Positions 17,726-34,975 of a stretch of DNA of 44,407 nucleotides are shown here, in pieces. Origin of the DNA: Thermoanaerobaculia bacterium (GTDB taxonomy: Bacteria; Acidobacteriota; Thermoanaerobaculia; JALWYX01); assembly GCA_027078415.1 (NCBI GenBank), contig JALWYX010000055.1, forward strand, positions 1 to 44,407. The letters run 5' to 3'. Positions within the stretch are counted from its first letter, which is position 1. Each line of letters opens with the position of its first letter. Below the pieces are notes generated by a model. It saw nothing but the letters and a program-made list of their open reading frames with translations. It did not search any database and was not told where the DNA came from. The position numbers and the translations under genes were made by a program.

Positions 17726-19849
17726 TTATAAGTATCCAAGCGCTTTTAGACTCTCTATAGTCTCTTCTTTTAGTGGTTCATCTCCCCTTGGGGTTTTGAA
17801 ATAGAGAGTTTGTTCGTGTTTGAACCCTGCTTCTATCCATTTTAGCAATCTCGCTTTGAGGTAGTAAACCTCTAGCGGTAAGAGTCTATTGCTTATTTTA
17901 TTTCGCATCTCTTTCGGATCGGAAAGTGTGTCAAAGAAATACTCGTTATCTCGATCTCGACCTATCCCTTCTCCCATTCCCCACCTAGGAGACCATATAT
18001 ATTTATAATTTCGATATTTTATTGAGAAAATTCCTGGGTCTATACTAGAAGCAGCTGCAAACGAAAAGTAAGGGTCTTCCGTTTCTGCATCAGATATCAA
18101 CTGCCATATCCTAGTTTCTCTATTACGGGTTATAAGGGATTGTAAAAATAGATACAGATCTCTAGTTGTTGTTCCACGTGATATAACTTTTGGTTCGAGG
18201 TGAGCTCCGCGGATTATAAGGGGTATTTTTATTTGTTCTTCGTATAATGTATATCCATGTAGTAATCCTCCATGGTCGAATAGCTCTTCTCCGTGATCTG
18301 AGGTTAGAATGAATAAAGTATCTTTAGGGTTTAGTATGCGATCTAAAAGGTGTATAAACTCTCGGAGTTTGTAATCAGCGAAAGCTAGGTTTGCTTTATA
18401 AAGTACTTTTATAACGTTTTTTTCTTGCTCAGATATAGGTAGTTTGCCTCTTTTTATCTTTAGGAGGGTAGAGGTTTTTCCATCTATTTTTGTAGAAAAA
18501 GCTGTGGGAAGAAACCGTTCTCTAAAAGATGTAGGAGGCCAGTAAGGATTGTGAGGAGATACTACATGTATGTAAAGGAACAACTTTTCTCGCTTGTTTT
18601 TTGCTAACCACTTTACGACACTTTCATTTACCTCTTCGGGAGACCTGTTTTCTGCATCTGGATTTTTAAACAGGAGCCCTTTTTCCACGTGGATAAAGCC
18701 GCGCGCTAGGCCAAAATCTTCTGATGCATAACCGCTGGAGGAGAAGAATGCGGTAGTATATCCAGCTTTAGAAAATAGCTCAGCTATTGTCTCTGGGTGG
18801 GTATTAGGTAATTTCCAACCACCTGTTTTCCAGAAATATTCTCCTGTAAATAAGGTTTTTACAGAGGGTAACGTGTTTGGAGCCGTTGAAAAATGATTGA
18901 GAAAACGCACTCCGTTTTTAGCTAATTGAGTAATGTTGGGTGCTACATCTTTATCTATATAGTCGTCTCTCAAAGCGTCTAGTATGTATACTATTACGTT
19001 TCTAGGTTCTAGTAACTGTTGTAGTTCTTTTTTAATTGTTTGTTGCTGTTGTTTCCTGAATATTATACCGAGATCTTTGAGTTCTACTTTTGCATATGAA
19101 TTGGCTATAAGAGTTAACTTTGCGAAACCTTTCTCTAATTCGGGTGATAGAAAAGTAAAAATTTTTCCTCTACTAGATTTTCTTTTTATTGAAAATTTCT
19201 TACCGTTTCTATCTTTTATAGAGATGTATATAGTGCTATTTGGAGGCATATTTATAGTTCCTTCTATTTTCGATCTATAGTTATTGAAGAAAGGAATAAT
19301 AACACCTGCGAAGCCTTCAATAATTATAGTTCCTTCTTTATAAAATACTTTTCCACCGTACGCTTCTTTTACTGCTACTTTGCTTATAGAGAAGGTGCAT
19401 CCTTCTTTTTTGAAGAATTTTACTATGTTTGTACCTGGATTTATTTTCTCTTTTGCTATTTCTATTTCGGTGAGCCCGATTTTTTCGATAGTTTTAATGA
19501 AATGATTGTTAATCCATACATTTATTTTGCAGTTGTCCGTTAACTCTTTTACTTCTATACCCAGTTTCCTAGGTGAGAGATTTACTATTTCTAATGTCAT
19601 TGATGCTGTGGGTTTTACCTGAGTCAAAAACATCTCCTTTTCTTTTTGTACTGGCCACCATCCACTTAAAAATCTAGAACCTTCATAGGAAGGAGGAAAC
19701 GACATCTCTGAGCGTTCCAATATTTTAAGGGGAACAATTTCAGGAGTTGGTAAGGAAATTTTTTTTGGCTCTCTACAGGATAATATATAAATAATGAGAA
19801 AGAGCAATCTAATTTTATCTATTGTTGTTTTTCTTCCTTTCCAACTCAT
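17726..19849 (-). CDS. Sulfatase-fold (alkaline phosphatase superfamily) lipoprotein, Thr-type
   Basis: This 707-residue protein begins with a lipoprotein-type signal (LLFLIIYILSC, Cys25). A beta-rich N-terminal region of about 240 residues follows, then an alkaline-phosphatase-superfamily domain. That domain has VYILDALRDD (first metal-binding Asp), STAPNTLPSV with Thr326 at the nucleophile position, HVVSPHNPY, and SDHGEELFDHGG (second metal site). The classic sulfatase signature C/S-x-P-x-R is absent: Thr replaces Cys/Ser and no Arg follows. It is therefore not a formylglycine sulfatase and may be a phosphatase or phosphotransferase such as a phosphoethanolamine-transferase relative. It ends in SLKALGYL, a tail shared with the protein at 32906-34975. 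The start at 19849 has GAGGAG about 11 nt upstream and overlaps the divergent gene by 56 nt. Confidence 0.8.
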   Translation of the reverse strand: MSWKGRKTTIDKIRLLFLIIYILSCREPKKISLPTPEIVPLKILERSEMSFPPSYEGSRFLSGWWPVQKEKEMFLTQVKPTASMTLEIVNLSPRKLGIEVKELTDNCKINVWINNHFIKTIEKIGLTEIEIAKEKINPGTNIVKFFKKEGCTFSISKVAVKEAYGGKVFYKEGTIIIEGFAGVIIPFFNNYRSKIEGTINMPPNSTIYISIKDRNGKKFSIKRKSSRGKIFTFLSPELEKGFAKLTLIANSYAKVELKDLGIIFRKQQQQTIKKELQQLLEPRNVIVYILDALRDDYIDKDVAPNITQLAKNGVRFLNHFSTAPNTLPSVKTLFTGEYFWKTGGWKLPNTHPETIAELFSKAGYTTAFFSSSGYASEDFGLARGFIHVEKGLLFKNPDAENRSPEEVNESVVKWLAKNKREKLFLYIHVVSPHNPYWPPTSFRERFLPTAFSTKIDGKTSTLLKIKRGKLPISEQEKNVIKVLYKANLAFADYKLREFIHLLDRILNPKDTLFILTSDHGEELFDHGGLLHGYTLYEEQIKIPLIIRGAHLEPKVISRGTTTRDLYLFLQSLITRNRETRIWQLISDAETEDPYFSFAAASSIDPGIFSIKYRNYKYIWSPRWGMGEGIGRDRDNEYFFDTLSDPKEMRNKISNRLLPLEVYYLKARLLKWIEAGFKHEQTLYFKTPRGDEPLKEETIESLKALGYL

Positions 19850-20867
19850 GGGGAAAAGTTCTCCTCATTCGTTTCTCTTGATTAGTTATACCGGTTTATC
19901 ACTGTCTGCCGTTGAGCAGGATTACATTTACGATAAAGTATATAGGATTTTTTTCTCTTTAAAAAAGAAAGGGACACTCAGATCTGCCTTTTCTCCTTCC
20001 CCTAATGTGGCATCTGCTATAAAATTTTTCTTCACAGGTGACTTGTCTCAAGTGTTCAGTGATAAGGTCTCTACTAGAGTCGATAATATAGTTCTACCTT
20101 TCACTAAAGCAAACTATAGAACAGTTCTCTCTATTCATAATATAAAAGTAGCGAGAGATCTTGGAATAGATTTCTTTTTCGATAAGATTATCGATCTTAA
20201 TTTCGATTTGATAGCAGCTGAATTAATGGAAAGAAAAACTTTTGTTTGGGTTATAATACCGTCGCCCGATTATCCTTTATGGAGAGTTGATACAAAAAAG
20301 ATAGCTGGAGTTGATCACGATCTATTTGAAGGATTACCTAAAAAGATAACTGTTGATTTTATGAAAAAAGGTTTTCTTCCTGTAGATAGAGTTAAAGAAA
20401 TCTACCTTACCAACGTAGCTACTTTAGAATTTTTCCTAGGTAAACTCTTATCAACTATTGATCTATCTACTACTACAGTTGTTGTGACCTCCGTTACAGG
20501 TTTTTCTGTTGATGGGGAAGAGAATTTGAGCTATGAACGGCTTTTCGTTCCTTTTTTTGTTGTAGATAATCCCCGGTTTCTAGATGTAGATTTTATAGAT
20601 ATTCCTTTCCCTCTACATCTATTTATAGATCTTATATATAACTCTTTTAACTTGGAAAAAACTTCTATTAACGATATAGAGTTCCCTATAGCGATAAGTA
20701 AGAAAGGTAACGGGTATAAAGTGGCTATCTTTAGAAATAAAAATTTAGGTATTTATCTATTTGATAATTATCCTTTTAAGGGAAACGGATACCTGGATAA
20801 ACGACTTTGGAAGATGTTGTTTAAACTTGTTCCCCCCTGCTTCTTTTTTGATAAAAATTGCTCTTAA
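19794..20867 (+). CDS. Catalytically degenerate sulfatase-fold protein, exported
   Basis: The 357-residue protein has a signal peptide (hydrophobic residues 5-18) and a chain that aligns by eye with the catalytic domain of the divergent sulfatase-fold protein. Every functional block is eroded. The metal-site segment ILDALRDD corresponds to LISYTGLS. The nucleophile block APNTLPSVKTLFTG corresponds to SPNVASAIKFFFTG, with Val72 in place of Thr. HVVSPHNPY corresponds to IIPSPDYPL, and SDHGEE to SVTGFS. The frame is intact over more than 1 kb, so this is a pseudoenzyme rather than a broken gene. It lacks the N-terminal beta-rich region and the LKALGY tail. Its first 56 nt overlap the start of the opposite-strand gene. 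It may bind a glycan or lipid, or regulate its active relatives; no direct evidence shows which. Confidence 0.65.
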   Translation: MRKSNLILSIVVFLPFQLMGKSSPHSFLLISYTGLSLSAVEQDYIYDKVYRIFFSLKKKGTLRSAFSPSPNVASAIKFFFTGDLSQVFSDKVSTRVDNIVLPFTKANYRTVLSIHNIKVARDLGIDFFFDKIIDLNFDLIAAELMERKTFVWVIIPSPDYPLWRVDTKKIAGVDHDLFEGLPKKITVDFMKKGFLPVDRVKEIYLTNVATLEFFLGKLLSTIDLSTTTVVVTSVTGFSVDGEENLSYERLFVPFFVVDNPRFLDVDFIDIPFPLHLFIDLIYNSFNLEKTSINDIEFPIAISKKGNGYKVAIFRNKNLGIYLFDNYPFKGNGYLDKRLWKMLFKLVPPCFFFDKNCS

Positions 20868-20943: not shown

Positions 20944-20982
20944 GAGCTTGGTTTCTTGATTAGTTTATCTAAGGATACTGAA

Positions 20983-21678
20983 ATGGTTTTGAAGAAACGA
21001 AGATACACTTTTTTTTTGTTCTACTGTTTCGCTACTGTTTTATTTGGTGATAGTAAGGTTGAAAGACTTATATCTGAGATAAAAAGCAAACGATCTCAGA
21101 TAAGGAGTTTGGTAGCCTCTTTTGAACAAAGAAAAAAGTCACCTCTTTTTAAAGAGCCGCAGGTAGCTGAAGGTACCCTTTATTTTATTCAACCTGATAG
21201 AGTCAAGATAGAATATCTTGAGCCTGTAAGTGTTGTTGTTCTTATTTCTCAGAGGAAGATGATAACTTACTATAAGGATTTGAAAAGAGCGGAAATTATA
21301 GATGTTGGTGCTTCTATAGATAGGATTTTATACTATTTTAGTCCTGCTAGTGGGATTGATACTTTAAAGAAGTACTTTTCCTTGAAACTGTTTTATCCTT
21401 CCAACGATAGTGATCCTATTGTTATCGATTTAACACCTGTTTCTATCAAACTAAAAAAAGTTTTAAAAAGGGTGGTTTTGAGTTTAGATCCTAAAGTTTA
21501 TTATTTTCCTGTAAGAATTGAGATATACAACAAGAATGGAAGCGAGTCTTTATATACTTTTGAAAAAGTAAGTATAAACAAAGAGATAGATGAGTCAGTT
21601 TTCAAGCTCGAGCTTCCTGAAGACGTTGATCTTGTGAAAGTCTCTGGTGTGAGCTTGGACTATGACGACGAACTTTAG
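20983..21678 (+). CDS. lolA: LolA-family outer-membrane lipoprotein carrier protein
   Basis: LolA shuttles lipoproteins from the LolCDE complex through the periplasm to the outer membrane. From the ATG at 20983 the protein has 231 residues. The N-terminus has a signal peptide (RRYTFFLFYCFATVLFG). SLVASFEQRKKSPLF follows, equivalent to LolA's signature strand, and then AEGTLYFIQPDRVKIEYLEP, the most conserved part of the family. The remainder is beta-rich, as expected for the half-barrel. AAGGA lies 7 nt before this ATG, so it is preferred to an upstream in-frame TTG at 20956. Its end overlaps tgt by 17 nt. Several lipoproteins in this window would be clients. LolA and the related LolA-like proteins of unknown role are hard to separate by sequence. 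Confidence 0.82.
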   Translation: MVLKKRRYTFFLFYCFATVLFGDSKVERLISEIKSKRSQIRSLVASFEQRKKSPLFKEPQVAEGTLYFIQPDRVKIEYLEPVSVVVLISQRKMITYYKDLKRAEIIDVGASIDRILYYFSPASGIDTLKKYFSLKLFYPSNDSDPIVIDLTPVSIKLKKVLKRVVLSLDPKVYYFPVRIEIYNKNGSESLYTFEKVSINKEIDESVFKLELPEDVDLVKVSGVSLDYDDEL

Positions 21679-32004: not shown

Positions 32005-32928
32005 ATGGATGATGAAAAGATGAAACGGTCTGGTTTTGTGGCCCTTATGGGTAGACCTAATGCAGGAAAGTCTACTCTGTTAAATCGTATAGTGGGTGAA
32101 AAGATAGCAATAGTTACACAAAAACCCCAAACTACCCGTAATAGGATTATAGCTATTTATACAGAAGAGAGAGGTCAAATAATATTTACAGATACTCCAG
32201 GGATACATAAACCTGAACATACTATGAATAGAGAAATGGTTTCTGATGCTCTTAAAGCAGCAAAAGAATCTGATATAGTGACAGTTATAATAGATGTATC
32301 TGTCAAAATAGGAAGAGGTGACGAGTATCTAGTAGGTTTGGTAGAGGAGATAAAAAAACCAAGAATATTATTACTTAATAAGATAGACCTTATCAAAAAG
32401 TCTGAGTTGCTTCCTATAATTGATAGATTTGCGGAAAAGGAAACATTCAATGAAATTATTCCTTTATCTGCTGCTGAAGGGGATGGTGTGGATATTTTTA
32501 TAGATAAGATTTTTGAATACCTGCCTATATCACCGCCTTTGTACGACGAGGAACTAGTTACTCTTCATACCGAACGATTTTTGGTGGCCGAATATATTCG
32601 GGAAAAGATATTGAATTTAACTAGAGAAGAGATTCCTTATTCTACTGCGGTCATAATTGACAGCTGGGAAGAAGAGGAAAATCTTGTGAAGATATATGCC
32701 TCTATAATTGTAGAAAGAGACTCCCAGAAAGGAATACTTATAGGTAAAAACGGTAGAATGATAAAAGAAATAGGGACAAGAGCCCGGGTTGATATAGAAG
32801 CTCTTTTGGGTAAAAAAGTTTTCCTAGATCTGCACGTTAAATGTAGGCCTAAATGGAGAGAGAATTTAAACCTTATAAAGCAATTAAAGCAGCAAGCTCT
32901 TCCTCATGCTCGTAAAGAGGAAGATTAG
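32005..32928 (+). CDS. era: GTPase Era
   Basis: Era is a GTPase that binds the 3' end of 16S rRNA and helps assemble the 30S subunit. The 307-residue protein has G1 GRPNAGKST, a switch segment KPQTTRNRI, G3 DTPGIHKPEH, G4 NKIDL and a C-terminal KH domain with the GKNGRMIKEIGTRAR loop. The ATG at 32005 is preceded by GAGGAG with 7-nt spacing, so it is preferred to a TTG at 31990 inside ybeY. The last 23 nt overlap the next gene. Confidence 0.96.
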   Translation: MDDEKMKRSGFVALMGRPNAGKSTLLNRIVGEKIAIVTQKPQTTRNRIIAIYTEERGQIIFTDTPGIHKPEHTMNREMVSDALKAAKESDIVTVIIDVSVKIGRGDEYLVGLVEEIKKPRILLLNKIDLIKKSELLPIIDRFAEKETFNEIIPLSAAEGDGVDIFIDKIFEYLPISPPLYDEELVTLHTERFLVAEYIREKILNLTREEIPYSTAVIIDSWEEEENLVKIYASIIVERDSQKGILIGKNGRMIKEIGTRARVDIEALLGKKVFLDLHVKCRPKWRENLNLIKQLKQQALPHARKEED

Positions 32929-34975
32929 ATCGTTTCTATTGCTAATTCTCTCCTTAGGGTGTAAAGAGAATGTAAGAGATGTAGTAAGACCGCTGGAAGA
33001 GCGAGAATTTCCCGTAACGTACATTGAAAAGAATGGAGTTAGAGAGAGATCGTATCTGTTGAAAGAAGGTGTTTATACTTTTGATTTGGAAAGAGATAGG
33101 AATCGAGTACATTTAAGATTTGCTCTAGATGGAAACTCTGAATACGCTGTTGTTCAGTTAGAGGTTTCCTCCTGGGGTGGTTATAAAGAAGTTGTAGTTA
33201 ATGAAAAATTGGATAGTGGTAGTTCATGGGTTACTAGAGTTGTGAATATTGAAGTAGCAGATAATGCTAAATTGACACTTAGAGTAGTGGGTGGTACGGT
33301 GGCTTTTTCCACTTTGAGAATAGGATCTTCTGAAGCAGGGAAAGGGTTGGTGTTTATACTGGTGGATACTCTAAGGCAAGATATTGGTTATAGTGTGCTT
33401 AGTTTGGAGAGATATTTAAGCACAAACTATTGGCGTTTTGACAATGCGTTTGCCCCATCACCTTGGACCTTACCCTCTGTTGCTTCTATTTTTGTAGGAC
33501 AAGACCCTACTTTTATAGGCGGTGTAGTACATCCTTCTAGCTTTAAGATAGACGACCAATTTTTTACTCTTGCCGAATATTTTCGGGAAAATAACTATAA
33601 AACAGCTGCTTTTGTAGCTAATGCTATAGTTACACCTATGGTTGGTTTTGATCAAGGATTTGATACTTTCTACTATCCTCCATCAACAGAGAATGACAAT
33701 TCTTGGCTTCTTTTAGGAGCTGATGATCTTTTGTATAAGGTTTCCCAGTGGATAGAGGCAAATAGAGGAGAAAAATATTTTCTTTACATACACCTACTTG
33801 ATCCACATGCACCTTATTTGAATAGTTTGGTAGAGAACGATATCTATCCTTACAAAAAGGATATATACAAAGGGGACCTAAACCCATTTTCTGCTCATGG
33901 GTTGCTTCTAGGGCGTCAGAGTGTAAGTGGCCAAGAGGATGTAGATTACCTGAGATCGCTTTACTCTTCGGAAGTTTTTTTCTTAGACAGGTACTTGGAT
34001 TTTTTCTTAGGTAGGTTTGAAAAAGAATTTGAATCTAAGGTGGTTGTGTTAACTTCGGATCATGGGGAGGAGTTCTACGACCATGGTGGATTTTCGCACG
34101 GACGATCTTTGTTTAATGAGCAGCTTAAGGTTCCCCTTGTTGTATGGAAAAAAGGGATAGGAAAAAAAATTGTAAAGGATCCTGTAACGGTAAAAGATAT
34201 AGGATATTTTTTACTTAAAATGTTAGATGAAAAAGGGTATAAGCATTGGGAACCTCGTTCTCTCCAAAAAATAGCTGGCAGCAAAAACAGAATCTATTTT
34301 TCTGCTCTAAATGGTGCTCCTCGTAGAGTGGCCCTTTTAAGTTACCCATTTAAGCTGATTTTGAACAATTTGAATGGAGAGTTTTCTTTTATCAACGAGT
34401 ATGACAAAACTGTTTTTAACTTGGAGCGACCTAGATTAGACGTATTTTACCTATTTAACATCTTGAAAGACCCTTATGAGAAAACTAATTTAGCTGCGTT
34501 GTTTCCTACAAAGGTAGAAGGTGGTGTAAAGATGTTATACAAGCGTATATTTGCGGAAGAGGGAGGTCTTTTTGTTTTGTTAAATGAAGGAGATCTAAAA
34601 ATTAAAATATCACCACGAGGTGATAGGAAATTAAGATTTACTCCTCTGTTTCTGGTGGATAACGATAGAGTAATTGAAGATAATTTTGTGATAGAGATCT
34701 CACTTTCAAGTGGTATGGGTAATTTCCCACGAGGTGTGCGAATATGGAGTGAATGGGATAATTTTGTACTTTTAGAAGCACCGCCAAAGAGTAAAAAGTT
34801 TTTTGGATCCACTCCTATAGAAGTGGGGCAAGTAATTGGTTACGATGAGTTGTATCCCCTATATTTAAGCGAAGCGGATGTTTTTATATGGAACGGTAGA
34901 TATAAGACAAGGAGTGACAGTGTTAGTGATAGTGATCAACTTAGAAGACTTAAAGCTTTAGGGTATATAGATTGA
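32906..34975 (+). CDS. Sulfatase-fold (alkaline phosphatase superfamily) lipoprotein, Thr-type, second copy
   Basis: This 689-residue protein starts with a lipoprotein signal (SFLLLILSLGC, Cys19). It has a beta-rich N-terminal part of about 125 residues, then the catalytic domain. GLVFILVDTLRQD carries the first metal Asp, FAPSPWTLPSVASIFVG the nucleophile block with Thr188, and YIHLLDPHAPY the His/Asp pair. SDHGEEFYDHGGFSHGRSLFNE supplies the second metal site. As in the copy at 17726-19849, Thr stands where sulfatases have Cys or Ser and the following Arg is Val. The C-terminus is RRLKALGYID, nearly the same tail. Metal ligands look intact, so it is probably active as a phosphatase, phosphotransferase or other esterase outside the cytoplasm. 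It overlaps era by 23 nt, an odd partner for a surface enzyme. Confidence 0.8.
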   Translation: MLVKRKIRSFLLLILSLGCKENVRDVVRPLEEREFPVTYIEKNGVRERSYLLKEGVYTFDLERDRNRVHLRFALDGNSEYAVVQLEVSSWGGYKEVVVNEKLDSGSSWVTRVVNIEVADNAKLTLRVVGGTVAFSTLRIGSSEAGKGLVFILVDTLRQDIGYSVLSLERYLSTNYWRFDNAFAPSPWTLPSVASIFVGQDPTFIGGVVHPSSFKIDDQFFTLAEYFRENNYKTAAFVANAIVTPMVGFDQGFDTFYYPPSTENDNSWLLLGADDLLYKVSQWIEANRGEKYFLYIHLLDPHAPYLNSLVENDIYPYKKDIYKGDLNPFSAHGLLLGRQSVSGQEDVDYLRSLYSSEVFFLDRYLDFFLGRFEKEFESKVVVLTSDHGEEFYDHGGFSHGRSLFNEQLKVPLVVWKKGIGKKIVKDPVTVKDIGYFLLKMLDEKGYKHWEPRSLQKIAGSKNRIYFSALNGAPRRVALLSYPFKLILNNLNGEFSFINEYDKTVFNLERPRLDVFYLFNILKDPYEKTNLAALFPTKVEGGVKMLYKRIFAEEGGLFVLLNEGDLKIKISPRGDRKLRFTPLFLVDNDRVIEDNFVIEISLSSGMGNFPRGVRIWSEWDNFVLLEAPPKSKKFFGSTPIEVGQVIGYDELYPLYLSEADVFIWNGRYKTRSDSVSDSDQLRRLKALGYID

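Follow-up and report, generated by a model that had tools for sequence, protein, structure and literature searches.

The open reading frame at positions 19794 to 20867 of the window probably encodes a pseudoenzyme of the alkaline phosphatase superfamily that is secreted, either into the periplasm or with a membrane anchor, and that is a paralog, specific to this lineage, of the Thr-dependent PF00884 proteins; the probability of this reading is put at about 60%. The window, which is the whole stretch of 44,407 nucleotides that was analysed, has a GC content of 37% and belongs to a 1.96-Mb genome of the Thermoanaerobaculia (Acidobacteriota) that is 97% complete in 80 contigs. In the search for relatives, this genome was the sole member of its own family.

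Gene and genomic setting

The candidate gene is an open frame of 357 codons (357 aa) on the plus strand. It begins with an ATG at 19794, and an in-frame TAA stop lies just 5' of this ATG. A PF00884 gene that looks active starts on the opposite strand within the candidate, so that the two coding sequences lie head-to-head and share 56 bp. The start of this neighbour is backed by an AGGAGA motif that can be read within the codons of the candidate. The preliminary description had reported an intact gene that is divergent from an apparently active relative and overlaps its start; its coordinates, frame, and length were right, as was the overlap. A promoter scan at the candidate returned no promoter that stands out. 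The features of the region are as follows.

17726 to 19849, minus strand: neighbour, an active-looking paralog found class-wide, with lipobox Cys25, an N-terminal domain, and a PF00884 domain carrying D291, T326, H433, D518, H519, and H531
19794 to 19849, both strands: head-to-head overlap of the candidate and neighbour coding sequences
19794 to 20867, plus strand: candidate, a coding sequence for a degenerate paralog with a predicted alkaline-phosphatase fold (open frame, profile, alignment, fold model)
19794 to 19856, plus strand: putative N-terminal signal peptide or anchor, MRKSNLILSIVVFLPFQLMGK, read from the sequence; secretion is predicted
19863 to 19922, plus strand: first strand with the loop that would have held the metal Asp, PHSFLLISYTGLSLSAVEQD versus PRNVIVYILDALRDDYID (alignment)
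20007 to 20009, plus strand: GTG codon of Val72, which replaces the nucleophile Thr326 (profile and alignment)
20268 to 20270, plus strand: Asp159 at the position of His433, where the PH-PY block has become PDYPL (alignment)
20487 to 20501, plus strand: TSVTG in place of TSDHG, with metal ligands D518 and H519 replaced by V234 and T235 (alignment)
20532 to 20534, plus strand: Tyr247 at the position of metal ligand His531 (alignment, gapped here, with a less certain register)
20956 to 21678, plus strand: lolA, the next gene 3' of the candidate, followed by tgt-yajC-secD-secF
32906 to 34975, plus strand: second active-looking PF00884 protein of the window

The TTG start listed for lolA at 20956 is probably wrong, and an ATG at 20983, which yields a clean signal peptide, is likelier.

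Homology and predicted fold

Pfam and NCBIfam searches with the candidate found no family reaching E 1, PF00884 included, and a sequence search of the PDB gave nothing useful. Evidence of homology comes from a sulfatase profile built from 67 domains of the source genome and its class, with the candidate left out. The candidate scored 22.6 bits on this profile, and 2,000 shuffles of its sequence scored at most 6.9 bits. On a longer profile it scored 20.1 bits, and the maximum of 5,000 shuffles was 5.5. ORFs unrelated to the superfamily peaked at 2.9 and 5.6 bits in the two comparisons, and the ORFs ranked adjacent to the candidate in the profile lists were truncated true members or superfamily relatives. 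Because the score on a candidate-free profile far exceeds those of the shuffles and of unrelated ORFs, the similarity is real; judged from the profiles, the candidate is homologous to the sulfatase domain (PF00884) of the alkaline phosphatase superfamily. The single sequences closest to it are the neighbour and the orthologs of the neighbour, at 21-23% identity, and the neighbour is also its sole other match in its own genome.

Further evidence comes from structure prediction, which the preliminary description had proposed as a check and which returned a fold related to the alkaline phosphatase superfamily in a model that leans on the alignment of paralogs. AlphaFold2 without an alignment gave the candidate a pLDDT of 34. 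With the paralog alignment the pTM was 0.72, a value to be read with the bias toward the PF00884 family that such an alignment brings. Residues 23-262 of this model mostly have a pLDDT above 70, many of them above 90, and the last 95 residues (263-357) fall below 50. Foldseek found 289 PDB matches to the model at E ≤ 0.001 (top E 2.8e-9), the best of which all belong to the alkaline phosphatase superfamily; the matches include choline sulfatase, sulfamidase, LtaP, EptC, and YejM. The top match, choline sulfatase (6g5z, 6fny), has a TM-score of ~0.56 by query length and, unlike the candidate, is a formylglycine enzyme whose active site is complete. According to the predicted model, the candidate is compatible with the alpha/beta core fold of the superfamily.

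Loss of the active site

Catalytic positions were read from a MAFFT alignment of 58 sequences and numbered by the neighbour. None of the six catalytic and metal-binding residues (D291, T326, H433, D518, H519, H531) is kept in the candidate. In other words, the nucleophile position is not occupied by Thr, Ser, or Cys, and the metal ligands D291, D518, H519, and H531 are absent. D291 aligns with S38 in the MAFFT alignment and with T33 in a gapless hand alignment, and it is lost in both. The formylglycine motif C/S-x-P-x-R is also absent, and VASAI stands in its place. The candidate keeps 16 of 58 conserved columns. These are mostly structural, and the structural residues kept are T366, G380, F385, F424, P435, Y484, T516, S517, G520, P543, and D564 in the numbering of the neighbour.

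The earlier statement that all catalytic residues are lost, with Val72 in place of the nucleophile Thr, thus agrees with the 58-sequence alignment. By our own arithmetic from this alignment, the chance of losing all six catalytic columns at the overall divergence of the candidate is ~0.13. Since a loss of all six is to be expected at this divergence, the pattern is evidence of lacking catalysis and not of targeted loss.

Paralogs in the same genome

The source genome has 19 PF00884-type members, in which the nucleophile is Thr (15), Ser (2), or Val (2). The 17 non-degenerate copies account for all of the Thr and Ser cases, and the formylglycine motif is absent from them, as it is from all 19 members. 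The active copies have Thr or Ser nucleophiles without this motif, and 'sulfatase' is therefore a Pfam label only. Judging by their residues, the 'sulfatase' genes of this genome likely encode Thr-dependent phospho- or sulfo-ester enzymes. One weak FGE-like match was found in the genome, within an 886-aa frame.

The second Val copy (C34:92692-94080, minus strand; the same gene as L188:8690-10081, minus strand) is a lipoprotein of 463 aa in which the metal Asp has become Ser, the nucleophile Thr has become Val, PH has become LA, and DH has become DY. Four active-looking copies form the array in which it sits, genes for peptidases M32 and M28 lie nearby, and one active copy of the array is its sister (support 98/92). 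Like the candidate, it has lost a metal Asp and has Val for the nucleophile, and it adjoins active copies. Unlike the candidate, it still has one metal Asp, one His, a lipobox, a PF00884 match of 65 bits, and a known sister. The retention of a dead copy is not unique to the candidate here, because this copy is degenerate as well. Among 189 profile-matching ORFs (13 gapped at the nucleophile position), only these two carry another residue there in place of Thr, Ser, or Cys; the sample was taken from all fetched loci, mostly around active seeds, and under-represents degenerate copies.

Distribution and phylogeny

No ortholog of the candidate was found in the 61 nearest relatives, in 396 genomes of the phylum, across GTDB (searched with peptide patterns), or in viral contigs. 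Two weak matches in the phylum (E 0.02-0.04) were rejected as orthologs, one being a chance match and the other an ordinary sulfatase. The family of the neighbour is conserved across the Thermoanaerobaculia, with an invariant lipobox Cys25 and a Thr nucleophile. Its members share a conserved N-terminal domain of ~250 residues, and above the Pfam cut-off only their sulfatase region was matched.

In the loci of relatives that were examined, no degenerate partner stands beside the orthologs of the neighbour. Large proteins that adjoin these orthologs were considered as partners and proved to be a permease, peptidases, a D-Ala ligase, and others. No similar gene was found 5' of lolA-tgt among the relatives examined; in the sole case identified, folK occupies this place. 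The head-to-head layout was seen in one genome only. The candidate, with a sulfatase gene on one side and the lolA operon on the other, is therefore specific to its lineage. Its terminal branch is 5.8 changes per column long, and the tree did not place it. The candidate may descend from the family of the neighbour; this was not rejected (p-AU 0.33), on a branch too long to show it.

Retention or decay of the gene

Could the candidate be a decaying duplicate under relaxed selection, whose frame is open by chance and has no present function? The long branch and an odd amino-acid make-up, which is also a trait of decaying genes, favour decay, as do the presence in a single genome and the general loss of conserved columns beyond the catalytic residues. 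However, the state of the reading frame argues against it. When the domain of the neighbour was randomly mutated to 21% identity over 348 codons, the 300 runs left a mean of 20.6 stops and a minimum of 8, and the candidate has none. Its codon log-odds are typical at 0.134 per codon (0.110 for the neighbour, 0.11-0.31 for neighbouring genes), and the signal peptide and strand pattern persist. Decay is judged unlikely. Because neutral drift to ~21% identity would give ~20 stops, the frame has probably been maintained, which supports a retained coding function and is no measure of current selection. The preliminary description had proposed selection for a non-catalytic role. The open frame at ~21% identity speaks for that part of the proposal, but the idea that the protein inhibits or binds the neighbour is unsupported.

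That idea is a special case of the pseudoenzyme reading, in which the candidate would specifically inhibit or chaperone the neighbouring lipoprotein enzyme and be co-regulated with it via the overlapping starts. It draws on the 56-bp overlap and on the neighbour being the closest match in the same genome. Yet the neighbour occurs class-wide with the partner absent beside it in the loci examined, and divergent genes are not on one transcript, which leaves this special case quite improbable. An active enzyme with a site re-built on the old fold from other acidic residues for a different chemistry is highly improbable, since, although several such residues (e.g., E41, D43, D159, E242, and E243) align near former active-site positions, the nucleophile position lacks Thr, Ser, and Cys alike, none of the metal positions has a His, and we know of no re-building of this kind in the superfamily.

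A putative binding protein of the cell envelope

The pseudoenzyme reading would run as follows. The PF00884 proteins are expanded in this Thermoanaerobaculia genome, and the candidate would be a paralog of them. Its metal ligands, nucleophile, and acid/base histidines are lost, and it has neither the lipid anchor nor the N-terminal domain that the neighbour carries. The protein would still be expressed, fold, and be retained as a non-catalytic protein, which in the cell envelope may bind either a ligand or one of the active paralogs. In other words, the candidate probably binds rather than cuts, as an envelope binding or regulatory protein. Against this reading stand the long branch and odd amino-acid make-up, the lack of orthologs in the genomes searched, the unconserved synteny, the low confidence of the last 95 residues, the dependence of the fold model on paralogs, and the lack of a promoter that stands out.

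Compared with the Thr-nucleophile PF00884 proteins of the Thermoanaerobaculia, the candidate shares the core fold, the pattern of strands and helices, and the secretion signal, but lacks the catalytic residues, the ~250-residue N-terminal domain, the lipobox Cys, and detection by Pfam. The best analogy may be of the YejM/LapC type. The periplasmic domain of YejM/PbgA/LapC (5i5d, 6vat, 6v8q) has an alkaline-phosphatase fold and an envelope location, which for the candidate is predicted. The main role of YejM/LapC is widely held to be regulatory rather than catalytic, and its catalysis is disputed (PMC7773988 versus PMC7576196). YejM keeps Thr302 and the metal site, and Mg-dependent phosphatase activity has been reported for it (PMC7576196). 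YejM also has a membrane domain of five helices, whereas the candidate has a single N-terminal hydrophobic stretch only.

Implications

Enzyme copies that have lost their catalytic residues are known from other cases. A search of the open literature for 'pseudosulfatase' and related terms gave no published example. It is conceivable, though doubtful, that the lineage retains several dead proteins of the alkaline-phosphatase fold beside active paralogs, dedicated to binding or regulation in the envelope, and that these make up a new pseudoenzyme family. Counts of 'sulfatases' based on Pfam overlook dead copies that are highly divergent. If the candidate is kept by selection, it would show clearly how the fold of a metal-dependent hydrolase can be reused purely for binding while active copies stand beside it, and it could help to settle the non-catalytic capacity of the alkaline-phosphatase fold, the subject of the open argument over YejM.
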